From contig JALRLY010000225.1 in the NCBI GenBank assembly GCA_023647555.1, positions 1-29,064 of the forward strand: DNA of 29,064 nucleotides, in the 5' to 3' direction. How positions within the stretch are numbered: the stretch's first letter is position 1; each line of letters begins with the position of its first letter. The stretch is from Pancytospora philotis (taxonomy: Eukaryota > Microsporidia). This document shows, in pieces, positions 6,745 through 29,064 of the stretch. A program made the position numbers and the translations under genes. The notes under the pieces were generated by a model. It was given only the letters and a program-made list of their open reading frames with translations. It had not been told where the DNA came from and made no database searches.

Positions 6745-8046
6745 ATGTTTTTTGGCATTTGCACGCTGCTGAGCACTGCGTACGCTGCTGTCATTGCGCC
6801 CACCCTCACCGACCGCATCGTCAAGCGCGAGTGCCTCGTCCCGATTGAGCCGCGGACCAACCCCTTCTTCCGCCACTTCACCATCCGCTTCGGAACCGGC
6901 GTCGGCGCGGCCTTTGTGCCCATCGACAACGTGCTCGAGTTCCTGCAGGACAAGGCCAACAACAACAGCCGCCACCTGCTCGCGATCTCGACGATGAACG
7001 CGACGTCCGTGACGCCGATCACGAACCCGACCGCCGCCGCGTACACGATCGAGATCAAGGCGAACTCGCTCGACAAGTTCTACGAGATCGTGAAGATCTT
7101 CGCGCTCTACGAGCGCCTGATCACGGCCGGCACCGCCGCCGCGACCACGGTCACCGTCGACGCCGCGTCCTACACAATCGACATCAACCTGCCCGTCGGC
7201 TACCAGATCTCCGACCAGATCTTCTTCCTGCAGTTCGCGACGTACGCCACCGCCGCGTCCTACACCGTCGTCACGCCTGTCGCCGACCCCGCGGTCTACA
7301 ACGCCAAGTTCACCGCCGAGATCTTCTCGTCCGGCTTCACGACCGTCGCCATCGAGGGCAACGCCGGCGAGAACCGCATCTACCAGGACTACACCGGCCT
7401 CATCCCCGCGACCGAGAGGCGCACGCGGCTCATCAAGTGCGCGATCGAGGAGAGCGCGCTCTCCTTCACCGTCGGCGAGTGCGACATCAAGCAGATGTAC
7501 CTCGAGAAGACGCTCGCCGAGCTGCGCTGCGGCACGCGCATCAACACCAAGGTGCGCTGCCTCAAGCCGATCTGCGGCGACAGCCTCAAGAACAAGTTCT
7601 TCAACTGCATCGCGTTCGCCGCGTCCTCGCTCACCGCCTGCACGAACGTCAAGAACACCGACGTCTTCCGCTGCGACTCCTACAACGGTGCTAAGAGCGT
7701 CTTCGACGTCATCGTCGCCGTGTTCGTGCGCCTCTCCATGGAGTGCAAGGACGAGTCCGTGAACTTCTTCTCCGCCATCATCGGCAGCACCATCGCCACC
7801 TCCTACAGCCCGTGCGGCGCCGGCGAGAACGACGGCCTCTGCTCCGAGGACTCCGCGATCGTCGACGGCCTCTGCGGCTGCGAGGAGAACGCCGCCGCCG
7901 AGAAGACGGAGGCCAACAAGGCTGACGACTGCGACGAAGACTCTAGAAAGGACAAGAAGCGCGGTGGCATCAGCAGAGTCTGGACCATCACCATCGTCGT
8001 TGTGGTAGTCGCTGGTGCGGCTGCAGCTGTCTTCGCCCTGTATTAA
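6745..8046 (+). CDS. Anchored Cys-rich surface protein 1
   Basis: This 433-residue protein has a signal peptide (MFFGICTLLSTAYA, cleavage likely near residue 15). A beta-rich N-terminal region contains three AASYT-like repeats near residues 97, 140 and 170. A Cys-rich region with about 14 cysteines spans about 231-395. A charged linker rich in E, D and K follows, then KDKKR and a final hydrophobic segment (412-433) that runs to the C-terminus. The last part fits a membrane anchor or GPI-attachment signal. It shares this architecture with the proteins at 9380 and 17334, so the three are probably paralogues. Codons are almost all C- or G-ending, stronger than in its neighbours, which suggests high expression. 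A spore-surface or secreted structural role is possible but is inference only. Confidence 0.85.
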   Translation: MFFGICTLLSTAYAAVIAPTLTDRIVKRECLVPIEPRTNPFFRHFTIRFGTGVGAAFVPIDNVLEFLQDKANNNSRHLLAISTMNATSVTPITNPTAAAYTIEIKANSLDKFYEIVKIFALYERLITAGTAAATTVTVDAASYTIDINLPVGYQISDQIFFLQFATYATAASYTVVTPVADPAVYNAKFTAEIFSSGFTTVAIEGNAGENRIYQDYTGLIPATERRTRLIKCAIEESALSFTVGECDIKQMYLEKTLAELRCGTRINTKVRCLKPICGDSLKNKFFNCIAFAASSLTACTNVKNTDVFRCDSYNGAKSVFDVIVAVFVRLSMECKDESVNFFSAIIGSTIATSYSPCGAGENDGLCSEDSAIVDGLCGCEENAAAEKTEANKADDCDEDSRKDKKRGGISRVWTITIVVVVVAGAAAAVFALY

Positions 8047-9379: not shown

Positions 9380-10939
9380 TTACATGATCAGAAGGCCGCC
9401 AACAGCTACTATGATGACCGATACAACTACGGCGACGACGATCTTTGTCTTCAAGCTCCAGCCGGGCCCGCGCTTTTTGTGCGCATCGTCGTCCTTTTCA
9501 CCAGACTCCTCGGCGCGCTCGATGGCTGCTGCTCCATCCTCGCCATAGCCCGGCGCGCTCTCGATGAACGCACGCTCTTCAGCGGTGAGGCCGTCGTGCA
9601 GCGCGCGCACGAAGCTGCCGCCGGACCTCGCATCGAGATGGCACTGGAGCATCGACAGCCACTCCCTGCCGTAAAGCTGGTTGGATCCGGTGCTCTGCAT
9701 CGCGTAGAGCAGCAGGCTCGAGCACGGATTGGTGAACTCTCTGATGGCCCGCAGATCCTCGCATGTGTGCTTTACGCTGCTTTTGTAGACCGAAACGAAC
9801 AGCGAGAGCGTGTAGCTGGCAAACAGCTGCGAGCACGCGAGCCGGCTCACGGCGGAGCGCATGCGGGCCCTGCGGCAGCTTCTGCCTTCCTTGTTGAAGC
9901 ACAGTGCGAGCGGGTCATCGCAGGAGTGACGCAGCGCGCGAAGCTCCTCTGACCTCCTGTTGCTGCAGAAAAGCGCGCGGATCTCGTCCATCTGGCATTC
10001 CGGGACGGCTGCGCGCCTGCTGCCGCACTCGATCATGCGCTTGACCTCCTCAAAATGCTTTACGGTGCAGAATCCGGAGGCGGGCAGGGTGTAGTTCGGC
10101 AGGCCAGACACGCGCCGCACAGCCCAGCGCGGGGCTATCCACTCATCTGTCCACCCACCGCGTTTTAGCACTTTGCTGTCCGCCCCGACGACTTTGATCT
10201 TTGAGAGGTGCTCGAGCGCGGTGTCTTTCGCGGTGCGGAAGTTCCAGAAGCTTCCGCCGAAGCCGATCTTGAACAGCTGGCAGCCCGCGTGCCCAGCGGG
10301 GAGCTTGAACCGGATGGACAGCCTCGAATTGCCGGTGAAGGGCTCGTATTCGTCTACATCGACCGAGTCTTTGAAGCAGGGGTCGCTGATGCAGCTGAAG
10401 ATGCTGTAGAGCGGGACGGGGCTGCTTTCGGACGCGGGCGTCTCCTTGTGTTTGAGTGCGACGATGTACTCCGCACCGGGGATGCATTCGCTGGGATCGA
10501 TCGCGAGAAATACGGGCTCGCGGCCGTCGGCGCACTGGGAGTGGGCGCTAGATTTGCACACCGAGACAACCAGCTTGTTGCTGATCTGACTGCAGCGCTC
10601 CACAGTATTTCTTATAACATAGTCACTGCTCTCAGCGGCCTCAGCTGAATCATCTGCATTGCCGAAGACGCTGTGGCTGCTCTCGGCAGCTTCGCTGCTG
10701 CTCTCTTGCTCCGCCTTAACGCCACTGCTATTCTGGGGCAGGACCGGGTCCACCCTGTATAGCTCGAGCTCCACATGGTTGGTCAGCCAGTTGTAACTGT
10801 AGTCGCGCGGAACAACGACCGGGCTCAGGCAACAGTTTGTAGCGCAATTCAGTGCATTTTTACCGGAGCACAGTAAAGGATTTAGCCACAGCTGCGCTAC
10901 GCCTTGCAAAGCGCGTAGTAACACCAGCCTTTGGCGCAT
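9380..10939 (-). CDS. Anchored Cys-rich surface protein 2
   Basis: The 519-residue protein has a hydrophobic N-terminal leader (MRQRLVLLRALQGVAQLW). A Ser- and Glu-rich low-complexity stretch lies near residues 80-115. A middle region of unknown fold precedes a Cys-rich helical region (about 285-440). An acidic linker (EESGEKDDD) is followed by HKKRG and a hydrophobic segment that ends at the C-terminus (IVVAVVVSVIIVAVGG). The layout matches the proteins at 6745 and 17334, and CSQLFASYTLSLFV here resembles STLFASASLNLAV in protein 3. A TATA box lies 19 nt upstream. The ATG at 10937-10939 is used because an overlapping upstream ATG is in another frame. Function unknown; a surface or secretory-pathway location is inferred from the leader and anchor. 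Confidence 0.82.
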   Translation of the reverse strand: MRQRLVLLRALQGVAQLWLNPLLCSGKNALNCATNCCLSPVVVPRDYSYNWLTNHVELELYRVDPVLPQNSSGVKAEQESSSEAAESSHSVFGNADDSAEAAESSDYVIRNTVERCSQISNKLVVSVCKSSAHSQCADGREPVFLAIDPSECIPGAEYIVALKHKETPASESSPVPLYSIFSCISDPCFKDSVDVDEYEPFTGNSRLSIRFKLPAGHAGCQLFKIGFGGSFWNFRTAKDTALEHLSKIKVVGADSKVLKRGGWTDEWIAPRWAVRRVSGLPNYTLPASGFCTVKHFEEVKRMIECGSRRAAVPECQMDEIRALFCSNRRSEELRALRHSCDDPLALCFNKEGRSCRRARMRSAVSRLACSQLFASYTLSLFVSVYKSSVKHTCEDLRAIREFTNPCSSLLLYAMQSTGSNQLYGREWLSMLQCHLDARSGGSFVRALHDGLTAEERAFIESAPGYGEDGAAAIERAEESGEKDDDAHKKRGPGWSLKTKIVVAVVVSVIIVAVGGLLIM

Positions 10940-11602: not shown

Positions 11603-12331
11603 ATGCTCGTGCGCGCGCTGGTAAACATGGCTGCGACCTGCCATGCCCAGCCGGGAGCGGGAGAAGAAAACGGGATGCGGGAAGAAAGCATTCACGAGAT
11701 CCTGCCCGACTGCGCAGAAAACTGGTTTACGAGTAACTTCGATATACGGCTCGTCGGGGTGCTAGAAGACGAGCCCACTGGCGATATATATGGCCACTAT
11801 AAGTGGGACACGATCGTGGCGGAAGTCGATCTCAGCGAGCAGTTGGTTTTGGCAGGGACAGTGGGCGGAAACATTAGCGATAGTGATACCATTCAGCTTT
11901 CTTTAGAACATCCTATTCACAGCGTGTATCGGTGGTGCTATTTAACATTGAGCCCGAAAGAGGAAGCTGAAATTCTACACTCAGAGGAGGAGATCCCCTG
12001 CGTCGGAATCGTGCCGAGTGAGATGTTGTACGGTAGCTCTAATGAACTCGCACTTTTTAAAACCAGGAAAGGCGAGCTGGGAATTTACCTCAAAGCGCTG
12101 GAGTTTGAGGCAGGCGGAGCTGTGCTGCAGCTCAAGCGCCCCAAAGAGCCGATTATTTATACACAACTATTCTACAACCAATGGAACAGCAAGACACAGT
12201 GGGCGTGGCGTGGTCTGCTACAGTTTAGCAGTACTTATGAGTTCCAATACACGACAATGTTCGAACTCTCTACTAATGACGATTCGATATACCTAAACGT
12301 TTTTATAGATCAGAGCGGAAGCGAGTTTTAA
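11603..12331 (+). CDS. Tandem secreted protein, copy 1
   Basis: The 242-residue protein has a signal peptide (MLVRALVNMAATCHA) and no other membrane segment, so it is probably exported. The mature part looks beta-rich. It is a close paralogue of the next gene, with the same length and shared blocks NWFTSNFDI, DEPTGD, KWDTIVAE, SEQL, AGTVGG, YRWCYLTLSPK, EEIPC, KGELGIY and FYNQW. Two cysteine positions (in YRWCY and EEIPC) are conserved between copies and could pair. The start is set by alignment to the second copy (GAGGGCATGCTCGTG at both). Tandem stops TAATAA overlap AATAAA. The family is not recognised; an exported host-facing or surface role is inference. Confidence 0.85.
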   Translation: MLVRALVNMAATCHAQPGAGEENGMREESIHEILPDCAENWFTSNFDIRLVGVLEDEPTGDIYGHYKWDTIVAEVDLSEQLVLAGTVGGNISDSDTIQLSLEHPIHSVYRWCYLTLSPKEEAEILHSEEEIPCVGIVPSEMLYGSSNELALFKTRKGELGIYLKALEFEAGGAVLQLKRPKEPIIYTQLFYNQWNSKTQWAWRGLLQFSSTYEFQYTTMFELSTNDDSIYLNVFIDQSGSEF

Positions 12332-12795: not shown

Positions 12796-13524
12796 ATGCT
12801 CGTGCGTGTGTTTGTAAACATTGCCGCGATCTGTTATGCACAGCCTGGTGCGGTAGAGAAGAATGACCAACAAGAAGAAAGCCCCCAGGCGATTCTGCCC
12901 AACAGCACAGACAACTGGTTCACGAGTAACTTCGATATACAGCTCTTCGGCGTGCTAGACGATGAACCCACTGGCGATGTGTGCGGCAGCTTCAAGTGGG
13001 ACACGATTGTGGCAGAAGACAATCTCAGCGAGCAGTTGGCTTTTGCAGGGACAGTGGGCGGAAGCGTCAATGGCAGCGATATCATCCAATTCTCTGTGAA
13101 TCACCCTATTCACAACGCTTATCGGTGGTGCTATCTAACCCTGAGCCCGAAGAAAGATGCCGATACTTTATACTCCTCGGAGGAGATTCCTTGCATCGAA
13201 ATTATACCAAACGAGATGGTATGCAGCGATTCTAGAGCGCTTACAGCATTCAAAACCAAGAAGGGAGAGCTGGGAATATATTTCAAGGCGGTAGAATCTG
13301 GAGTAAACGGGGTAGTGCTGCATCTCAAGCGCCTAAAAGAACCGATAATCTACACGGAACCATTCTACAACCAATGGACCCGTGAAACGCAGTGGATGCG
13401 ACGCGGCCTGCTACAGTTCGACGGTAGTAAGAAATTTCGGTTCGCGACAATGTTCAAACTCTCCACTAATGAGCACCCATTATACATCAACATTTTAATG
13501 GATGAAAGCGAGAGCACCGTTTAA
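12796..13524 (+). CDS. Tandem secreted protein, copy 2
   Basis: The 242-residue paralogue of the gene at 11603 has a signal peptide MLVRVFVNIAAICYA. It keeps the conserved blocks (NWFTSNFDI, DEPTGD, KWDTIVAE, AGTVGG, YRWCYLTLSPK, KGELGIY, FYNQW, RGLLQF). The two copies have no length difference, so substitutions dominate their divergence, mostly in the segment after the signal peptide, around residues 130-180 and at the C-terminus. Stops TAATAA overlap AATAAA at 13523-13528. It lies just upstream of the subtilisin gene and on the same strand, each with its own promoter. Function unknown. Confidence 0.85.
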   Translation: MLVRVFVNIAAICYAQPGAVEKNDQQEESPQAILPNSTDNWFTSNFDIQLFGVLDDEPTGDVCGSFKWDTIVAEDNLSEQLAFAGTVGGSVNGSDIIQFSVNHPIHNAYRWCYLTLSPKKDADTLYSSEEIPCIEIIPNEMVCSDSRALTAFKTKKGELGIYFKAVESGVNGVVLHLKRLKEPIIYTEPFYNQWTRETQWMRRGLLQFDGSKKFRFATMFKLSTNEHPLYINILMDESESTV

Positions 13525-17333: not shown

Positions 17334-18725
17334 ATGGAGCTGCTGCTAGTGATGCTCTTTGCGCTCTGCATTCGCGCCTCCAACCCGACCGCTTCGCGGC
17401 TGACGTTCCAGTTCCTGCAGATCGATCCCACCTCGGGTATCGACGGCGATGGAGACATCGTCCCGCCCCCGCCGGTCGATGTCAGCGGCGCAATCACAGT
17501 CACGCCGAACGATTCCAATGGCAGCGTGGCGGTGTCATTCAACACGGCGGCCGCGCCCGCCTTCGACCCGGCGCTGCAGCACGTGATCATGGTGCAGGGA
17601 GTCAACCCGGCCGTCTTCTCGCCCGATGTCTACACGTACGCGGTGTTTAACAACGATCCGTCCCAGGTGCCGTTCTACATCGGCCCCTCGGCGTACATGT
17701 ACAACGGATTCATCGTGGCCTTCACCAACAACACGGTATTCACCAGCCAGGTCTACACGTTCGTCTTCACGAGCATCGCGACGTCCCTGACCTACGAGGG
17801 CACCGACTCCAGCGGCTCGCTGCTGAAATACAACCTGGCGCTCACCGCGGTCATCCTGAAGGACCCGACGGTGCCCACGCAGACCCAGGCGAACACGAAC
17901 CTTGACATGGACGGCACGTACGAGTTTGTGGACTACAGCGATCCGTCCCTGGGCGTCCTGCCGGCGGCCGGATCGTCTGCCATTGTAGACCCGACAGACC
18001 CAATCGAATTCTTGAAGGCTATGAAGATCCGGATCACCACCAGCGCCGTTCCGCTCTTCGTTGACGACTGCACGCTTGCCGAGCTCAAGTGCATCCGCGA
18101 GCTCACCCAGCTGCAGGGCACGTACTGCCGGCGTGCCGACGAGGAGTGCCCGCGCGCCAGCGGATCGCGCAGCAGGTGCCGTGAGACCGTCGCCAGATCT
18201 ACGCTGTTTGCGTCTGCGAGTCTGAATCTGGCCGTGCGTCCCCGCCTCGTGCAGGAGTGCGAGCGCAAGCTGGGCAACGATTGCTGGCGGGCTATGCGGC
18301 CAGCCGACGTATTCTTCTGGCTCTGCGCGCATCTGCTTGAGCTCGGTACTACGGACGGCCAGCCATGCGGCACCTTCCAGGGCGGCTCGGGTGCAACTAA
18401 GCTGTGCGACATCTTCCAGGGTGTCGGGGGACACAGCGTGTGCGGCCTGCGCAGCTGGCACCTGAGGAGCATCTGCCCGCTGACTGCCGGCGACCAGAAG
18501 CTGGTCGATTCGCTCTGCGGCGAGGGAGCCGCGGAGGGAGAGGCCGTGGACGAGGAGTGCGACGTTGTAGAGAGCAAGGAGTCCGAGGAGTCTGAAGAGA
18601 AGGCTGCGCACAAGAAAAAGCAGTCCAAACAGCTTTCTCGTGCTGGCAGGACGGTTCTCATCGTCATGGTGGCGGTCTGCGGCTCTGCTGTTGCCGTTTA
18701 CATCGGCTACTCTCTGCTCCTCTGA
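17334..18725 (+). CDS. Anchored Cys-rich surface protein 3
   Basis: The 463-residue protein has a signal peptide (MELLLVMLFALCIRAS). A beta-rich N-terminal region (about 25-235) is rich in T, S, V and F. A Cys-rich helical region spans about 244-392 (DDCTLAELKCIREL, ECERKLGNDCW, WLCAHLLELG). An acidic linker (EECDVVESKESEESEE) is followed by HKKKQSK and a final hydrophobic segment at 441-463 ending at the C-terminus. This matches proteins 1 and 2 in order and proportions. The lack of any residue after the hydrophobic segment, with the basic cluster on its N-terminal side, suits a GPI signal or an unusual anchor. Function unknown; a surface location is inferred. Confidence 0.83.
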   Translation: MELLLVMLFALCIRASNPTASRLTFQFLQIDPTSGIDGDGDIVPPPPVDVSGAITVTPNDSNGSVAVSFNTAAAPAFDPALQHVIMVQGVNPAVFSPDVYTYAVFNNDPSQVPFYIGPSAYMYNGFIVAFTNNTVFTSQVYTFVFTSIATSLTYEGTDSSGSLLKYNLALTAVILKDPTVPTQTQANTNLDMDGTYEFVDYSDPSLGVLPAAGSSAIVDPTDPIEFLKAMKIRITTSAVPLFVDDCTLAELKCIRELTQLQGTYCRRADEECPRASGSRSRCRETVARSTLFASASLNLAVRPRLVQECERKLGNDCWRAMRPADVFFWLCAHLLELGTTDGQPCGTFQGGSGATKLCDIFQGVGGHSVCGLRSWHLRSICPLTAGDQKLVDSLCGEGAAEGEAVDEECDVVESKESEESEEKAAHKKKQSKQLSRAGRTVLIVMVAVCGSAVAVYIGYSLLL

Positions 18726-19040: not shown

Positions 19041-19826
19041 CTACGGCAGCAGGTTCCACTCATCGTCTACGACACCGAGCGCCGCCCAGAATTCCTTGTG
19101 CGCAGGCGCGTTGCTGATGAGCCCGTCCAGCTGGGAGAGCGTGACCGTGAGCTCCCGCGCGCCGATCGCAACCACAGCAAAGCTCAGCTCCGGGACCAGC
19201 GTGCCTCGAATGTCCGGCGATACGTCGAGCGTCTCGGCAACGGCGGCCAGCCGCAGCGCATCGGCACTGATTCTGCCCGCCTCCGCGCTCGACCAGTAGG
19301 CCAGCGATATGCAGGACTCGAAGCGCAGCAGATCCTCGGCCATAATCAGGAACGTGTTGTAGGACTCCTCGAAGTGCTCTTTGATGAACTGCAGGCAGTC
19401 CAGCGGGGCCTCCCCGATGATGCTGCTCCGCGCGTAGTAGGCGCGGTACGCCTCCACAAAGCCGGGGATCAGCTGTTTGATGAAACTGAACACATTGTTG
19501 ATCTTAAAGCCCGGGATCCAGTAGTAGAGGCTCGAGCGTACGGTGGAGTTCTTGAGGAAGAGCAGCGCGGCCTCGAACAGATCGCGGCGCCCGAGCAGCT
19601 CCTCGCGAATCGCGTCGAGACGCTTGAGCACGTACTTGTCGCCCAGGTTGAAGGACTCGTCGACGTAGTTGAGGATGTTGACCGTCGAGAGGTTGTGGAT
19701 TTTGAGGCGCGTCGAGAGCTTGGGCTGGTCCGCGAGCAGCTCCGGGATGTAGGACTTCTTGTCCGGGGCGGCGTCTGCGCCCTCCTCCATGAGCAGCTTG
19801 CGGTCGGCCTCGATCTGCTCTGTCAT
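19041..19826 (-). CDS. Conserved-looking 261-residue helical protein, unknown
   Basis: I do not recognise this protein. It is GC-rich like the housekeeping genes, has no signal peptide or clear membrane segment, and appears almost entirely helical. A charged N-terminus leads to LSTRLKIHNLSTVNILNYVDE, then LKRLDAIREELLGRRDLFEAA and YYWIPGFKINNVFSFIKQLIPGF. The last block is the most distinctive and could be tested for homology. The start at 19826 is chosen because CCC (19829-19831) and an AATTTTTT element (19840-19847) sit directly before it. Composition and promoter class suggest an intracellular core function, possibly a complex subunit, but nothing more specific can be supported. Confidence 0.7.
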   Translation of the reverse strand: MTEQIEADRKLLMEEGADAAPDKKSYIPELLADQPKLSTRLKIHNLSTVNILNYVDESFNLGDKYVLKRLDAIREELLGRRDLFEAALLFLKNSTVRSSLYYWIPGFKINNVFSFIKQLIPGFVEAYRAYYARSSIIGEAPLDCLQFIKEHFEESYNTFLIMAEDLLRFESCISLAYWSSAEAGRISADALRLAAVAETLDVSPDIRGTLVPELSFAVVAIGARELTVTLSQLDGLISNAPAHKEFWAALGVVDDEWNLLP

Positions 19827-22477: not shown

Positions 22478-23743
22478 TTATTCCTCCATCTTCTTTTGCT
22501 CCCCAGTGGACTCAGCTTTATCAGTCCTCGTCTCTTGTACAATAGCCTCACAGATTCGGGTAGACACTCTTTTGGCAACATTTTCGATTTCGCCGGGAAT
22601 AATCTTACTGATCAGACGAGATGTGGGCACTATAGTATGATCGGGATATGTTGCATTGTGCGTGTTAATAGCGAAAATAACATCATTGAATGCGTTATCC
22701 ATCTCCTCAAAAAGCTCTGGCTCAACCTCAAGATTGTTGGACCGGAAGTTAGCAACATCATTGACATGCCTCTCCAGGGCTTTTAACTCAGTAGTAACCT
22801 GGATTAGCGCCTCGCGCCAAAACGATCCCCACCCTTCATAGTCTAACTCTGGATACACATAGTGTAGATGCTCATATGGGTCCTCTGGACTATCTCTTCC
22901 TCTACAGCGCGTTGCAAACCAAACAATTTCCCTCGATATTTCTTCTGGGAATGAATATATGTATGCAAGCGCCTCTTTGCAGCATTCCTTAAAGTTATCC
23001 ATAAACTGATCATTAATTATTCTAGATGCCGTGTTTGAGCTTGGGCCTAATATACCATTATATTTGCGGTGGGGGAAGCTTCTTCTAGACGCCATACCCG
23101 AAGGATTGTCTAATGTCATCCTAGATCTGTTCAGATCATCTATCTTGGCGCCATCTAAGCTATCGAGTTCTTCGCCCTGGAGACCTTTAACAAATTTTGA
23201 AAACGCGTAAGAGTTTGCGTTAACTGTGATTGCATTTATAACATCCCGAAATCTATAATATGCGTAGTCGCATGCGCTCAACAGACACCTAGCATATGAA
23301 TAGCTTTTACGCAGTCGTTCTGAAGATGAAAATAGTTGCTCCAGCTCTGCAGCATGCTCATTGATAAAGGTAGCTGAGTCTACTGCATTCGCTACACTGC
23401 GTTTACGCAAACTATCTCTTTCGTAGGCTTGTTCTACATAGATTTTGAGTATTTCTTCGAAAAGCAGTTCCTTCCATTCTTTATAATAGCCCAATACGGT
23501 AGTATTGCCAGCCTCCTCCACCTCTAGCGGGTTTTCGCCATAGATCGGTTTTGCAAGTCGATGAATTTTATAAGTGAAGCGCTCGCATTCATGCGGCTTG
23601 TACTCCTTCCCGTTATCGTCAGCAGACAGCACGCCCTCACCGATCAATTCGTCGCAATCATCTTTTGTTAGCAAACCGGCCCTGTGCCACATGTACGCCG
23701 CGAGGCATTGGGCAATGACTGTGAACTTGGCCGCGCAGCGCAT
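22478..23743 (-). CDS. Array-family protein, copy A
   Basis: The 421-residue protein belongs to a family I do not recognise. The N-terminus (MRCAAKFTVIAQCLAAYMW) is hydrophobic and could be a signal peptide, followed by the conserved AGLLTKDDC. Then come YYKEWKE (about 91), a helical region with RKSYSYA, LDSLDGAKIDDLNRSR, and the most conserved block, YPELDYEGWGSFW, followed by an amphipathic helix (VTTELKALERHVNDV). The C-terminus is acidic (KKMEE). GAATAAA overlaps the stop (22477-22482). CCCC and GAAAAAT lie upstream. It resembles copy C in the first 200 residues. Exported-protein status is inference. Confidence 0.85.
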   Translation of the reverse strand: MRCAAKFTVIAQCLAAYMWHRAGLLTKDDCDELIGEGVLSADDNGKEYKPHECERFTYKIHRLAKPIYGENPLEVEEAGNTTVLGYYKEWKELLFEEILKIYVEQAYERDSLRKRSVANAVDSATFINEHAAELEQLFSSSERLRKSYSYARCLLSACDYAYYRFRDVINAITVNANSYAFSKFVKGLQGEELDSLDGAKIDDLNRSRMTLDNPSGMASRRSFPHRKYNGILGPSSNTASRIINDQFMDNFKECCKEALAYIYSFPEEISREIVWFATRCRGRDSPEDPYEHLHYVYPELDYEGWGSFWREALIQVTTELKALERHVNDVANFRSNNLEVEPELFEEMDNAFNDVIFAINTHNATYPDHTIVPTSRLISKIIPGEIENVAKRVSTRICEAIVQETRTDKAESTGEQKKMEE

Positions 23744-23750
23744 GGGGTAG

Positions 23751-23756
23751 ATTTTT
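23751..23756 (-). promoter_or_regulatory. AAAAAT start signal of copy A
   Basis: AAAAAT lies 7 nt upstream of the ATG at 23743, with CCCC at 23744-23747 between them (minus strand). Confidence 0.5.
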
Positions 23757-23807
23757 CGTTATGTCATTATTTGAAGTTGGCACTAAAGGGGTAGTGTTGA
23801 CTGCTTA

Positions 23808-23815
23808 GATTGGTC
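23808..23815 (-). promoter_or_regulatory. CCAAT-like box of copy A
   Basis: GACCAATC (minus strand) lies 64 nt upstream of the ATG. The same box is at the matching position of copy B, and a degenerate form is at copy C. Its position fits a CCAAT box, but no factor is shown. Confidence 0.45.
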
Positions 23816-24468
23816 AGATGGTGCACACGACCCAATAGATTCTCGGTAGACGACCACTCCTTTAAGTTCAACGCTTGCACTCCTGTAAGGCCGCCGGACG
23901 GTTCTGCGAATGGTTGTGCACCGTTGATCGGATGAAGCGTATAGTCGCGAGCACAGCGGGTTACGCTAGTGGCTAAGTATCCTATGCTCGTATCCGCTGG
24001 CGCCATATCCCACATAGATAATAGCTCGATGGCTGAAGTGCAGAACTACTAGCAGTTATGCGGATAGGCCAGTTATTGTCAGCATTTTGATTGGTCGCTT
24101 ATGGTTAATGAACCAGTCACAACAGCCGCCATTTAAGACACGCCTGCAAAAGGACCATTTCCATGAATAGCTTTATTAGTTAAAATCGTGCTAACATCTG
24201 TAAGGCTGTCGGACCCATACTCAACTAGTTAAACGGTAGTACCCCATCACACGGCTGAAGATTGCTAACCCGTTCCCTTTTATTCGAGCGCACCCTGGAG
24301 CTCTTCAATTGCCAAACTATCCACAGCATTGAAAACCAACACTGCAAAAATCGGGCTCGCATTAGAACTTGCAAGCAGCCTGCTCCACGCAAACATAATT
24401 AAAGCGCCGCAAAAGAAGCACGAGGCAGAATAATATAGATAAAATAAGCCAGATAATGTTAAATCAGT

Positions 24469-25740
24469 TTATTCCTCCATTTCTACGGCAGGCGTTTCCG
24501 GTTCGCCGGGCAGTGCAGCTTCATTGCTGTTCGCGTTTTCAGAGATATTTCCATGAATTTGGTTAATCGTTCGTTCGACAACAACCTCAATTTCATTCGC
24601 AACTATGTGATTGATCAAACTGGGAACACGCATAACATTATCAGGATAATTGATCGTAGTGTGACCTGACATAGTATTGTCAAATTTATCGATCAATGAT
24701 TGTATAAACTCTTGGGGGTTGGACATGCAAATAGATACTTCCTCGACATGCTTCTGTAAGGCCTCCAGTTCACTAGTGACTTGATTCTGGATCGCCCGCC
24801 AGCATTTTCCCCAGCCTTCATAATCTAACTCCGGGTATACGAGGTGTATATATGCAAAGGGGTCCTCAACTTCATCAAATTGGCCCTTAGCGAATATATC
24901 AAATGTTCTATGTAAAATTGTATCTTTAGATATTCTTCCTGGGATTTTAGAAGCATGTGCAAGCGCATCAGTGCAATAACTCTTGAAGACAGTAATAAAA
25001 TTATTATCAATCGCCCTGGGAGTTTCAGCTGTCCCTAACACGCTTTCGTCTATGCGCCCAGCAAATTGTACCATAAGGCCCTTCTCTCGACTATCAGCTT
25101 CTAATTTGCTCCTGAGAGAGTTCAGCTTATCAATTGTAGCCGGATCAAAACGCTCGAGGTCCTTATATGGTAAATTTTTGACAATGTTTGAAATCTTGCT
25201 TGATATACAGCCAATCGCCACCATAACACCGTCAAACTCACCATATTTACAGGCATAAGCAAGCATCAAATTCTTGACATATTCATAACTTTTACGTAGC
25301 AGTACTGAAGACGGTGTTGCTTGTATCGAAAATGCACGCAGTTCATTGGCCAAAGAAGGTATATCTATTGGGTTACCCCCAGCGCGTTTTTTAAAGCGAT
25401 CATACCTATAGCTCTCCTTAACATACCTCTTAAGTAAAACAGTGCAGAAATTGCTGAGCTGATCCCTCCATTCTCTATAGTAACCAAGAGCTGTATTATC
25501 GCATACACCTGCCAAGTCTTCGCTCAGAGGCTCATCGCCACGGATCGGTTTTGAGATACGCTGCATCTCATACTTGAAGTCCTTGAATGTACTTGGCGTG
25601 TATTGCACGCTGCTATCATTGGCATGCGGATGGAAGTGTGTCACTAGTGCATAATCATCGCTAGTTAATAAACCAGCCCGATGCAGCATGGGCGCCGCTA
25701 GACAATGTGCAATACATGTGAGCTTGGACACGCTGCGCAT
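24469..25740 (-). CDS. Array-family protein, copy B
   Basis: The 423-residue member has N-terminus MRSVSKLTCIAHCLAAPML then AGLLTSDDY. YYREWRD, LRKSYEYVKN, DLERFDPATIDKLNSLR and YPELDYEGWGKCW follow. The last 130 residues are nearly the same as in copy C (VTSELEALQKHVEEVS, IVANEIEVVVERTINQ, NSNEAAL.GEP), while the N-terminal 250 residues are much more different, suggesting gene conversion of the 3' end. The start is defined by CCCC and AAATTT upstream. GAATAAA overlaps the stop (24468-24473). Function unknown. Confidence 0.85.
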   Translation of the reverse strand: MRSVSKLTCIAHCLAAPMLHRAGLLTSDDYALVTHFHPHANDSSVQYTPSTFKDFKYEMQRISKPIRGDEPLSEDLAGVCDNTALGYYREWRDQLSNFCTVLLKRYVKESYRYDRFKKRAGGNPIDIPSLANELRAFSIQATPSSVLLRKSYEYVKNLMLAYACKYGEFDGVMVAIGCISSKISNIVKNLPYKDLERFDPATIDKLNSLRSKLEADSREKGLMVQFAGRIDESVLGTAETPRAIDNNFITVFKSYCTDALAHASKIPGRISKDTILHRTFDIFAKGQFDEVEDPFAYIHLVYPELDYEGWGKCWRAIQNQVTSELEALQKHVEEVSICMSNPQEFIQSLIDKFDNTMSGHTTINYPDNVMRVPSLINHIVANEIEVVVERTINQIHGNISENANSNEAALPGEPETPAVEMEE

Positions 25741-25749
25741 GGGGTAACG

Positions 25750-25755
25750 AAATTT
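25750..25755 (-). promoter_or_regulatory. AAATTT start signal of copy B
   Basis: AAATTT lies 9 nt upstream of the ATG at 25740, with CCCC at 25741-25744. Confidence 0.6.
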
Positions 25756-25802
25756 CGAATTTTTATAGCTAGCGTGAAAAAAATAAGGGGGCTATTCGCT
25801 TG

Positions 25803-25810
25803 GATTGGTC
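25803..25810 (-). promoter_or_regulatory. CCAAT-like box of copy B
   Basis: GACCAATC (minus strand) lies 62 nt upstream of the ATG, with CCCCCTTATT between the box and AAATTT, as in copy C. Confidence 0.45.
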
Positions 25811-26489
25811 AATGAGAGGTAGCAAAGGGGGACATCCGCTTAGAGTGGTCGTATGATACACATGAACCAACGAATATTTGTCGAGATTTCACTCCTTTTT
25901 ATTCTTACGCATGCGGGTTCGCCGTGGCACCGTACAATATTACAGCCATTCGCGTACGCCGCTCAGATAAAGCGCAGAGTAATCAAAATCGGAAGCCGGC
26001 TGGCGTGTAGGCAACTGGTGTGCTTATCTGCTAGCTCGATATACACCATATATAGATATTGATTGTCAAATAAGAAACTACAAATAGAAGAGAGACAAAT
26101 CAGCTATTATCGAGTTATTGATTGGATATCCCTTAATGTGAACCAGTACACCATTGGCCATTTGAAATACCCCTCATGTGGGAAATTCACTATGAGTAAC
26201 GCTATTGGCGCGAGCTTCGCTGACACTGAAAAGGGGACAGACTCATACGCAATAATCGCATGCATCGCCCATTACACGACGAGGACTGCAGACCTGTTTC
26301 TTCGCTTCAGCGATACCTTAGGGCCTTCTAACAGCTGAATCACCCATAACAGTAATAATACCACCCAAAGAATTGAGCTCGAAATAGAATCGGTAAAGAG
26401 CCTGCACCATGTGTGCAAAATGCAAATGCTATGAGAGGAACGCTGGATTAAATAGCTCAAGTGATGGTAAAACTAGGAACATCAACCAT

Positions 26490-27716
26490 TTATTTTTCTA
26501 CTTCGTCGGCAGTCGTTCCCGGTTCCCCGGCCAGTGCAGCTTCATTGCTGTTTGTGTTCTCAGAGATTTTCTCATGAACTTGGTTGATCGTTCGTTCGAC
26601 AACAACCTCAATTTCATTTGCAACTATGTAATTGATCAAACCGGGAACATGAATAGCATCAGGATACTTGATCGTATTGTGACCTGACATAGCACTGTCA
26701 AAATTATCGGCCAGTAGTTGTATAAACTCTTGGAGGTTGGACATGCAGACAGAAACTTCCTCGACATGCTTCTGTAAGGCCTCCAGTTCACTGGTGACTT
26801 GATTCTGAACCGCCCGCCAGCAAATTCCCCAGCCTTCATAATCTAACTCAGGATACACATAATGCGCATACTTATAAATATCCTCTATGCATACTCTCTT
26901 TATACAATTATGAGTTATTTCATTTGATAATTTTGGGGGAACCTTATGTGCATATGCAAGCCCTTTTTCACAGTAATCCCTATAGCTTTTAACAATATCA
27001 TCATCAACTGGCTTAGGATTTGTAGCAGTGCCTAGTATATCATCGGATATATAAAGGTTGAAACCTCTTGCAGATGTAAATTTTGAGCGTTGGTTCAATT
27101 CACCCCTAAGTGTATTTAACTTCATTATTGTGGCGTCTTCGAGACTGTCGAGGCTTTTATCCTTAAAATCTTCACCGAGTTTTGAAAGCTGCCTCCATAT
27201 ACGATCTATGGCCAGTGGAATCTCAGTAAAATCACCAAATGCAAAATCATATGAACGCATTAGAAGCACAAGATACTCATAGCTACTACGCAGCTGCGCT
27301 GAAGGTGAAAATACCTGCTTAAACTCTTCGGGGCGCTCATTAATCAGAGCAATTAGGTCTACTGTGCTTTCTCCTTCCCGCCTTTTAAAACTATCTTTTT
27401 TATAGGCTTGTTCCGCATAAATTCTGAGTATTTTGTGCAACTGCTCCCTCCATTCCCCATAATTGCCTACCGCAGTAGTGTTATGCCCATTTACCTGCAG
27501 CGGGTTGTCACCACGGGTCGGTTTAACAAGACACGTAATCTTTTGGGTGAACCGTTCGAAGTCGTGCGGCGCGTAACGCTCGCCGCTATCGTTTGCTGGT
27601 AAAATACCTACACTGGCCAATAGTGCACAATCGTCCTTTGTTAATAAACCGGCCCGGCGCCACATGTACGCAGCGAAGCATTGTGCAATGCAAGTGAACG
27701 TGACTGTGCAGCGCAT
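26490..27716 (-). CDS. Array-family protein, copy C
   Basis: The 408-residue member has N-terminus MRCTVTFTCIAQCFAAYMW then AGLLTKDDC, close to copy A. YGEWREQ, LRSSYEYLV, SLDSLEDATIMKLNTLR and YPELDYEGWGICW follow. The C-terminal third is nearly that of copy B. The start at 27716 is chosen over an in-frame Met 120 nt upstream because family alignment begins at MRC and CCCC plus AAATTT sit directly before it. AATAAA overlaps the stop (26489-26494). The 5' half resembles A and the 3' third resembles B, giving a mosaic gene. Confidence 0.85.
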   Translation of the reverse strand: MRCTVTFTCIAQCFAAYMWRRAGLLTKDDCALLASVGILPANDSGERYAPHDFERFTQKITCLVKPTRGDNPLQVNGHNTTAVGNYGEWREQLHKILRIYAEQAYKKDSFKRREGESTVDLIALINERPEEFKQVFSPSAQLRSSYEYLVLLMRSYDFAFGDFTEIPLAIDRIWRQLSKLGEDFKDKSLDSLEDATIMKLNTLRGELNQRSKFTSARGFNLYISDDILGTATNPKPVDDDIVKSYRDYCEKGLAYAHKVPPKLSNEITHNCIKRVCIEDIYKYAHYVYPELDYEGWGICWRAVQNQVTSELEALQKHVEEVSVCMSNLQEFIQLLADNFDSAMSGHNTIKYPDAIHVPGLINYIVANEIEVVVERTINQVHEKISENTNSNEAALAGEPGTTADEVEK

Positions 27717-28424
27717 GGGGCAAAATTTTCTTGATTTTTTGTAGTCAGCAATAAGGGGGCAAGTTGATAGGTTCAGATTTGCCAAACAGGTTGCACAACC
27801 CAATAAAAACTGCATTACACATTCGACTTTTTTCAATTTTTGCGCTTACATATTTGTAGCGGCGCTATGCAGTTGTGCAGCCATTCGCACCCATTCTAAA
27901 CGGATGCAGCGTATATTGCTATAACGGTAGATCAGCTCGACTCATGATCCAATGCACTCATTTACAGGCTGAAAACATTTAGAGATAATGCTGTGACAGC
28001 CGAAGTAAAGCACTACACACAGTATGACAAATAAACTGCGTAGTATTACAAATATTGATTGGACATCTTTTAGTATTAGATCGTGTGCCATTAGCCACTC
28101 GAGATGTTTCTCACATGGGAATATCGCATCAGGTAACTCTGTCGGTTCAAACTTCCTTGACATCTTAGAAGTGGACAAAGCCATACTTAACACCGCGGAT
28201 AATAGCCCACTCTACAATTGAATATTGTATGTCCATCTTCTTTCACCCAGGCCCAGCCGGTGCTACTCCAACGGGTGCACTGTCCACAGCAGTTGAAATA
28301 AATACTGAAATCAAGCTTCCACAATATTCAATGAACTGTAGAAAGCATGCAGGTTATACCTTAATCACTATAGGAGTAGCTTCAAAGATCAATAATGTGA
28401 AAGTAAAGAAAATGTTAAGTCACT
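27717..28424. other. Array spacer C-D
   Basis: This spacer is homologous in parts to the other two (CGGATGCAGCGTATA near 27900, ATTGATTGGACATC near 28053). A degenerate form of the CCAAT-like box lies at 27776-27783. Frames at 27942-28193 and 28229-28462 lack start signals and are not called. Confidence 0.55.
27723..27728 (-). promoter_or_regulatory. AAATTT start signal of copy C
   Basis: AAATTT lies 6 nt upstream of the ATG at 27716, with CCCC at 27717-27720. CCCCCTTATT (minus strand) follows further upstream, near 27751. Confidence 0.6.
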
Positions 28425-29064
28425 TTATTCTTCTATTCCCGGCTGTCTTTGAAGATGCATAGAATGTTCTTCTGCTTGGAGTCTTGCCAACCATCCGCGC
28501 ATGCGTTCGAACAGCTCCGAATCTGATTGCGACTTCGCAGACTCAGCAGCTAAAATCTCTTCCAGCCTCTCGCTCATACGTTCAACTAGCGTTGGTTCGG
28601 ACTGCGGCTTTTCGGACCGGATGGTCGCATCCGCGCGAGAAGGCTGGAAAATCCCTTCAGCAGAATTTGGAGTATTTTCAGCACTCATTCGTCTATGACT
28701 CCTCTTGCGGCTCAGATCAGGCGCATCATTGGTGACAGAATCAGCCCAGTAAGCAATAAGTTCATCGGTGTCTTCAGGACTTAGGGCAAATATGGTCTTA
28801 GCATGGGCTGTCATAGCGACATCAATTATCCTATCGAAATCTTCACTGCTTAGTGCGCAGCTCCGATAAACAGCCCCAAGACTCTTAAAAGTAACATCAA
28901 TACTGTCGACTAAGTATTTCACGTATGACTCAAGCTTGTGTGCAGACTGGCACATTTGAACCTCATAGACATGCTTCTGCAAAACTTTCACCTGATTAGC
29001 GACTTGCACTTGAGCAGCTTTCCAAAAAGATCCCCATGCTTCATAGTCCATTTCTGGGTATATA
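28425..29064 (-). CDS. Array-family protein, copy D (5' end beyond window)
   Basis: The C-terminal 212 residues of a fourth array member. The frame is open to the window edge and begins IYPEMDYEAWGSFW, aligning with YPELDYEGWG in A-C. The following helix (VANQVKVLQKHVYEVQMC) is also conserved. The tail then diverges: a basic stretch (SRKRSHRRMS) is followed by two imperfect 25-residue charged repeats, LVERMSERLEEILAAE and LFERMRGWLARLQAEE. It ends GIEE, as the family usually ends in acidic residues. AATAAA overlaps the stop (28424-28429). The Met at 29049-29051 is internal, not the start. Confidence 0.8.
   Translation of the reverse strand, partial: IYPEMDYEAWGSFWKAAQVQVANQVKVLQKHVYEVQMCQSAHKLESYVKYLVDSIDVTFKSLGAVYRSCALSSEDFDRIIDVAMTAHAKTIFALSPEDTDELIAYWADSVTNDAPDLSRKRSHRRMSAENTPNSAEGIFQPSRADATIRSEKPQSEPTLVERMSERLEEILAAESAKSQSDSELFERMRGWLARLQAEEHSMHLQRQPGIEE
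28490..28640 (-). repeat. Two 75-bp imperfect repeats inside copy D
   Basis: CATGCGTTCGAACAG near 28500 and CATACGTTCAACTAG near 28575 begin two copies 75 bp apart, and similar ends (GATTGCGACTT and GACTGCGGCTT) follow. The period of 25 codons keeps the frame. Confidence 0.7.

Follow-up and report, generated by a model that had tools for sequence, protein, structure and literature searches.

An apparently lineage-specific protein family of the microsporidian Pancytospora philotis with a constrained, signal-like leader and mosaic C-terminal modules

The window analyzed here is the entire contig C83 (JALRLY010000225.1, positions 1–29064) of the 3.68 Mb, 83-contig assembly GCA_023647555.1 of Pancytospora philotis, a microsporidian hosted by nematodes (PMC10393165). 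It carries an array of genes for a protein family that has expanded to about 26 close copies in the genome, and in which the C-terminal module, or tail, does not share the ancestry of the body to which it is joined. We consider it reasonably likely that these genes form a lineage-specific, host-facing exported family of P. philotis that diversifies by swapping C-terminal modules.

A first-pass annotation of the window had described a same-strand tandem array of four related genes, and both parts of that description were confirmed. Reading frames on the − strand end at positions 22478, 24469, 26490 and 28425 (spacings of 1991, 2021 and 1935 nucleotides, nt), and a search of the genome with the product of copy B recovered copies C (E 1e-113) and A (E 3.5e-68). 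All five window copies lie on the − strand; A, B and C are complete, D is a C-terminal fragment, and E is an N-terminal fragment at the opposite contig end (match over 24–659, E 8.3e-27). The shared motifs proposed for the array held in part. YPELDYEGWG is exact in A, B and C and reads YPEMDYEAWG in D; YYKEW is exact in A only, with YYREW in B and NYGEW in C; AGLLTKDD is exact in A and C and reads AGLLTSDD in B, while D is without that region. At the DNA level, the N-terminal region recurs in the window as a three-copy family and the YPELDYEGWG block as a four-copy family (26754–26855 in C; A, B and D in Table 1), the other three being 67–71% identical to that of A. The frame of copy C stays open upstream of the conserved Met, and the database record begins it at 441 amino acids (aa).

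Copy C illustrates the mosaic ancestry of body and tail, which is demonstrated at the level of sequence comparison. In 40-codon windows, B and C share 41–64% DNA identity to about codon 261 and 84–93% from about codon 281; C and the copy on contig C22 share 70–90% in windows starting up to codon 291 and 39–42% from codon 321. The synonymous substitution rate (dS) between B and C drops from 1.5 in the body to 0.30 in the tail, where the nonsynonymous rate (dN) is 0.125; between C and the C22 copy, dS is 0.435 for the body and reaches saturation in the tail. Trees were built from 22 sequences, namely the 19 complete copies with DNA plus P0006, P0003 and P0013, excluding fragments, the duplicate on contig C24, copies running into N and the diverged cluster on contig C16. 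These trees conflict: the body tree joins C to the C22 copy (support 100/100) and the tail tree joins it to B (100/99), and the approximately unbiased (AU) test rejects a B–C grouping for the body (p 2.8e-5) and a C–C22 grouping for the tail (p 1.9e-5). The best switch point falls after codon 288, within an interval (286–314) that covers YPELDYEGWG and the stretch beyond it, and the informative codons of C are C22-like before the switch (169 of 196) and B-like after it (76 of 80). Downstream of C, the near 3′ flank resembles that of the copy on contig C25 and the farther flank that of the C22 copy; a tract therefore appears to have been replaced within a C22-like locus, which fits gene conversion.

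Across the family, the six long-tail sequences form one group in the tail tree (100/100) and require at least five changes of tail type on the body tree, where their placement as a single clade is rejected (p 1.35e-53). For 11 of the 171 pairs scanned, the contrast in identity was matched by none of 400 column shuffles. The tail of the C45 copy (L017 3299–4474, −) seems shortened, since the match to its relatives continues beyond its TAG. The mechanism that we propose would begin with a leader that takes the protein into the secretory route, from which it would reach either the surface of the parasite or the inside of the host cell. Duplication and gene conversion would re-pair bodies with tails at an exchange point in or beside the YPELDYEGWG block, and this re-pairing could diversify a set of host-facing binding proteins.

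Identity is unevenly distributed along the proteins. Over 171 pairs, it averages 62% in residues 1–26, 60% in residues 298–332 (the YPELDYEGWG block) and 28–45% in other stretches. AlphaFold models of two members, based on 13 and 14 sequences, consist mainly of helices arranged in a similar order: that of copy B has a predicted local distance difference test score (pLDDT) of 75.7 and a predicted template modeling score (pTM) of 0.72, and that of P0006 a pLDDT of 70.8 and a pTM of 0.63. The N-terminal pLDDT is below 50 in both (residues 1–14 in B, 1–17 in P0006). On the alignment and these models, the predicted layout is a leader (about residues 1–26) followed by a body (about 60–297) and a C-terminal module (from about 307 onward), both alpha-helical. 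The module occurs as a short or a long type, the latter often with an extra disordered linker and a helical hairpin. P0006, which has the long tail, shows a low-confidence linker at residues 417–489 followed by a hairpin at 493–532. Its linker contains SRKR (residues 453–456), a motif found in 4 of 23 sequences scanned (c22a, c10a, c8a and D), and one may guess that it is a nuclear localization signal.

The further copies that the first-pass annotation had suggested looking for are present. Copy B found 28 places in its own genome at E ≤ 0.001, and other queries with looser limits found 27 (a 45-residue leader query), 28, 31 and 33. When split matches are joined and contig C24, a duplicate of part of C8, is excluded, about 26 distinct close copies are counted, in addition to the diverged four-gene cluster on C16. 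The window and C8 hold five each, C38 has three (including one contig-end fragment), C10, C22 and C26 have two each, and single copies are on C25, C45, C51, C56, C57, C81 and C82; C8, C10, C22, C26, C38 and the window contain same-strand tandem groups. The copies on C51 and C56 may be one gene, since both run into N and agree up to it. PAPHI01_1802, whose best match in the assembly is only 55%, and PAPHI01_0975, whose own contig has 73,167 nt in the database and is unlike every contig fetched (the protein itself was not used as a query), seem to be database copies missing from the assembly. Consequently, the figure of about 26 is a lower bound. Contigs C24 and C8 are identical over 3,569 bases (L013 1–3569, L010 6432–10000), up to the end of the C8 stretch fetched, either because the assembly contains this stretch twice or because an overlap was left unmerged. 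Alignments used the 20 complete distinct copies, and codon analyses the 19 with DNA.

A profile of the 20 members matched 13 proteins at E ≤ 10; of 5.8 billion sequences, 7,996 were scored as candidates. Three were window proteins and ten were P. philotis proteins, so that the family does appear lineage-specific, as had been proposed. A strong match to a widespread intracellular family was looked for and not found, and no Nematocida protein was among the 13 matches of this shared-word search of 7,996 scored candidates. PAPHI01_0471, the example of PanLGF1, was absent from the matches of both the family profile and a profile of the C16 cluster. The latter gave three matches, all from P. philotis, and so yielded no support for the cluster as a bridge to other species. 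The term “species-specific” is provisional, because the searches need shared words and included no control for P. epiphaga or Nematocida proteins in the searched set. The C16 cluster (L022 1066–6442) consists of PAPHI01_1708–1710 and a neighbor, two of them with canonical-looking signal peptides, and is possibly an older form of the family. The earlier statement that the proteins have no recognizable domain also stands, as Pfam, PDB and fold searches gave no credible match. Among the best 25 of 26 Pfam families at E ≤ 1, none was matched by more than 3 of the 20 members, and neither DUF1609, the domain that marks InterB/NemLGF26, DUF3654, DUF1686 and DUF2463 nor the LRR, RING and ricin-B domains of microsporidian families were found. 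Peptidase C78 (PF07910) was matched by copy C only, 1 of the 20, with 22.8 bits against a cut-off of 29.1, and was rejected.

The leader is constrained in four of the five close pairs, those to which a codon test was applied; the B/C pair was excluded for its deep body divergence. The proportion of nonsynonymous differences (pN) in leader codons 2–26 is 0.017, 0.088, 0.052 and 0.051, against 0.161, 0.195, 0.190 and 0.187 in codons 27–290 of the same pairs in the same order, and the proportion of synonymous differences (pS) is 0.453, 0.278, 0.340 and 0.313 in the leader and 0.327, 0.451, 0.394 and 0.375 in codons 27–290. Because pN is low while silent sites differ, conservation acts on the protein in these pairs. 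A putative signal-peptidase site follows residue 15 in all 19 complete copies under a loose rule that asks for small residues at positions 13 and 15. The best 10-residue hydrophobicity of the leader averages 1.80, a value reached by 4.5% of 380 internal 30-mers from the same proteins; it is 1.54–3.29 in seven window genes judged signal-bearing and −0.87 to 1.54 in five others, of which three (Myb, RtcB and the gene at 19041) have uncertain starts. Two members of the C16 cluster, 1708 and 1709, start with canonical-looking signal peptides (2.41 and 3.18). The leader is probably a short, signal-peptide-like sequence at the weak end of the range. The proteins are probably exported; export is likely in view of Nematocida, whose host-exposed proteins are enriched in large families and targeting signals (PMC5423893). 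All 27 matches of the 45-residue leader query fall on family copies or on fragments identified by their leader, which dismisses a leader common to unrelated proteins; the long open frame at one match runs through N and so gives no evidence of fusion. The DNA just before the ATG is similar too: each of the 19 copies has C at −3 and −2, 18 of them also have C at −1, and an A-rich stretch precedes these bases.

Pairwise dN/dS is 0.29–0.46 in the measurable body and tail segments of the five close pairs, one C/C22 tail segment being saturated. Diversifying selection is unsupported, as no measurable pairwise value exceeds 1, and since none exceeds 0.5, duplication and exchange seem to account for more of the family's diversity than fast change of amino acids does.

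Several observations weigh against an exported, host-facing family. At the pairwise level there is no sign of an arms race, for the reason just given. The leader is less hydrophobic than most signal-like controls, and copy c26b (1.26) has mostly lost a hydrophobic leader. Signal peptides are usually variable, and a constrained leader is therefore odd for a plain signal peptide. Nor is the leader the most constrained stretch, ranking 17 of 263, 27 of 258, 9 of 265 and 9 of 265 blocks in the four pairs, and dN/dS over the first 39 codons of B and C (0.48) is not below that of the B/C body (0.39). The modest hydrophobicity and unusually strong conservation would suit an intracellular family, in which the N-terminus would be a folding or membrane-contact helix and the tails dimerization or partner-binding modules. 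However, the leader is of low confidence in both structure models, canonical-looking signal peptides occupy this position in two diverged members, and signal peptides and large clade-specific families are enriched among host-exposed microsporidian proteins (PMC5423893), so that we hold this explanation to be unlikely. A signal-like leader suits any secretory destination, and the Pfam search recognized no host-binding domain; the proteins could then be secreted components of the spore wall, polar tube or secretory pathway, with copy number serving dose rather than host contact. This seems rather improbable for proteins whose mean identity is 28–34% in four stretches outside the leader and block, much divergence for a dose-driven protein. 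As a doubtful extension, the hydrophobic stretch with R-A-G-L-L-T-x-x-D could be a dedicated export address, like the host-targeting motifs of Plasmodium and oomycetes, and the proteins combinatorial effectors. A single constrained address and a single exchange block would then let gene conversion re-pair bodies and tails, and some tails, with SRKR in a disordered linker, would direct the protein to the host nucleus.

The copies might instead be neutral passengers of rearranging, AT-richer regions, in which duplication and conversion would be by-products of repetitive contig ends and the proteins would be of little importance. GC content at third codon positions (GC3) is 0.36–0.65 in the 19 copies, against 0.76–0.96 in nine other genes of the window; contig ends hold several copies, and one lies beside ribosomal RNA (rRNA). 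Against this, each of the 19 aligned copies, at the length used, keeps an unbroken frame between Met and stop (C45 stops before the end of its match to relatives), and dN/dS is below 0.5 wherever it was measurable in the five pairs; we give the neutral account little weight. A mosaic such as copy C could also arise in the assembly by joining reads from different copies: assemblies break and join in repeats, both ends of the window contig lie inside copies, and C8 and C24 share their identical stretch. Yet the B/C tails and the C/C22 bodies each differ by the dS and dN given above, so that neither part of C was copied from the other copy's reads, and tail type changes repeatedly over the body tree. 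An artifact is thus very hard to credit.

The first-pass annotation had suggested looking for telomeric repeats beyond the right edge. A telomeric setting of this contig was not supported: none of the three tandem arrays detected in the window (with periods of 15, 24 and 30) resembles a telomere, and the sole telomere repeat type tried, a four-fold TTAGG, is unmatched in the assembly. About 420 bases separate the start of the C25 copy from the 5′ end of an opposite-strand small-subunit (SSU) rRNA gene. In Encephalitozoon cuniculi, a ribosomal DNA (rDNA) unit is reported at every chromosome end (PMC4704409), and the C25 copy may accordingly be subtelomeric. Several copies sit at contig ends, but repeats also break assemblies. 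A nuclear RNase P RNA gene (L019 7814–8061, −), adjoined by a tRNA, lies on a stretch with a family copy.

Gene conversion among paralogs is a precedented route to variation, as in the variant surface glycoprotein (VSG) family of trypanosomes. The Pancytospora family is like VSG in that paralogs exchange sequence by apparent gene conversion and unlike it in that there is no evidence here for one-at-a-time expression, expression sites or surface anchoring. Within microsporidia, clade-specific families of secreted proteins are widespread (PMC5423893, PMC10393165). In Nematocida, three of four nucleus-specific host-exposed proteins have predicted signal peptides, NemLGF1 and NemLGF5 are enriched at chromosome ends, and members of four families are often adjacent (PMC5423893). 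NemLGF1, with 81 members reported in P. philotis, has N-terminal, middle and helical C-terminal domains. One criterion for a large gene family is that SignalP 4.1 predicts a signal peptide, or TMHMM a transmembrane domain, in at least half of the members (PMC10393165). The present family resembles the NemLGF and PanLGF families in having at least 10 paralogs, no Pfam domain, clade restriction as far as searched and a secretory-type N-terminus; unlike them, it shows tail exchange between paralogs, which the excerpts of PMC5423893 and PMC10393165 do not describe. It may already be catalogued in the supplementary family table of PMC10393165, the one paper in which PAPHI01 tags occur. The tags of the family are PAPHI01_0284, 0285, 0682, 0975, 1802, 1965, 1968, 2085, 2251, 2347 and 1708–1710. 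The InterAE, InterB and InterD families of E. cuniculi are repeated and subtelomeric, with recombination sites inside interD genes and an endoplasmic reticulum signal peptide in interAE and interB (PMC4704409). They share with the present family the repetition, recombination inside genes, a signal-like leader and, for one copy, proximity to rDNA, whereas in 20 members of the P. philotis family DUF1609, DUF3654, DUF1686 and DUF2463 are absent among the best 25 of 26 Pfam families, the C-terminal module is what is exchanged, and the evidence is tree conflict. In literature on Pancytospora, microsporidian large and mosaic families, subtelomeric conversion and effectors, we found no description of this family or of tail exchange in any microsporidian family. 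Clade-specific secreted families are a known kind in microsporidia; to the extent of the search, the tail swap and the constraint on the leader are novel.

Beside the array, the window encodes an SMC protein, a Myb-like protein, a subtilase, RtcB and a mechanosensitive channel. Its GC3 values form two groups, high in nine core-type genes and lower in the family and three other genes (1496–2401, 11603–12331 and 12796–13524; 0.48–0.58). The first of these three (+, GC3 0.48) begins in a signal-like manner, and its N-terminus weakly resembles places on C56 and C12. The other two (+, GC3 0.58) are a tandem pair, 62% identical, with signal-like N-termini, and no further copy of the pair was found in the genome. 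The genes at 6745–8046 (+), 9380–10939 (−) and 17334–18725 (+) encode a hydrophobic N-terminus, a Lys-rich stretch and then a C-terminal hydrophobic segment; their products resemble type I membrane proteins and match no Pfam family at E 0.1. No second copy of 17334–18725 was found in the genome.

Table 1. Features of the family in the window (positions 1–29064 unless a stretch is named).
Feature	Position	Strand	Description
Copy A	22478–23743	−	Complete, 421 aa, short tail type; open reading frame, homology, alignment
Copy B	24469–25740	−	Complete, 423 aa, short tail type; structure model 1
Copy C	26490–27716	−	Complete, 408 aa counted from conserved Met; mosaic gene
Copy D	28425–29063	−	C-terminal fragment, 212 residues, long tail type with SRKR; truncated by right contig end
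Copy E	3–665	−	N-terminal fragment, 221 residues; truncated by other contig end
Leader of A, residues 1–26	23666–23743	−	Conservation, codon changes
Leader of B, residues 1–26	25663–25740	−	Conservation; mean pLDDT 34 (residues 1–10), 52 (11–20)
Leader of C, residues 1–26	27639–27716	−	Conservation, codon changes
Leader of E, residues 1–26	588–665	−	Leader query matches
YPELDYEGWG block of A	22754–22855	−	DNA repeat family; alignment residues 298–332
YPELDYEGWG block of B	24736–24837	−	DNA repeat family
Conserved block of D, YPEMDYEAWG	28959–29060	−	DNA repeat family
Switch interval of C, codons 286–314	26775–26861	−	Spans YPELDYEGWG; C22-like body before, B-like tail after
Tail of B	24469–24840	−	84–93% DNA identity to C tail (40-codon windows); dS 0.30
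Tail of C, B-like	26490–26858	−	DNA windows, dS, trees, switch scan
Near 3′ flank of C, beside stop	26430–26487	−	86% identity over 58 nt to flank of C25 copy
Farther 3′ flank of C	26220–26355	−	About 70% identity to C22 copy flank; weak match, E 1.7e-5
SSU rRNA gene 5′ end, microsporidian	L014 1–259	−	Truncated by contig start, beside family copy

We know of no microsporidian export address beyond the signal peptide. Potential secondary export signals are described as still awaiting discovery (PMC5423893), and a conserved N-terminus joined to a diverging body makes this family a testable candidate for one. Exchange of tails offers a small parasite genome a route to new protein combinations, and the pairing of body type with tail type gives a marker that can be traced between strains. 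Such exchange may help the parasite to vary its host-facing proteins.

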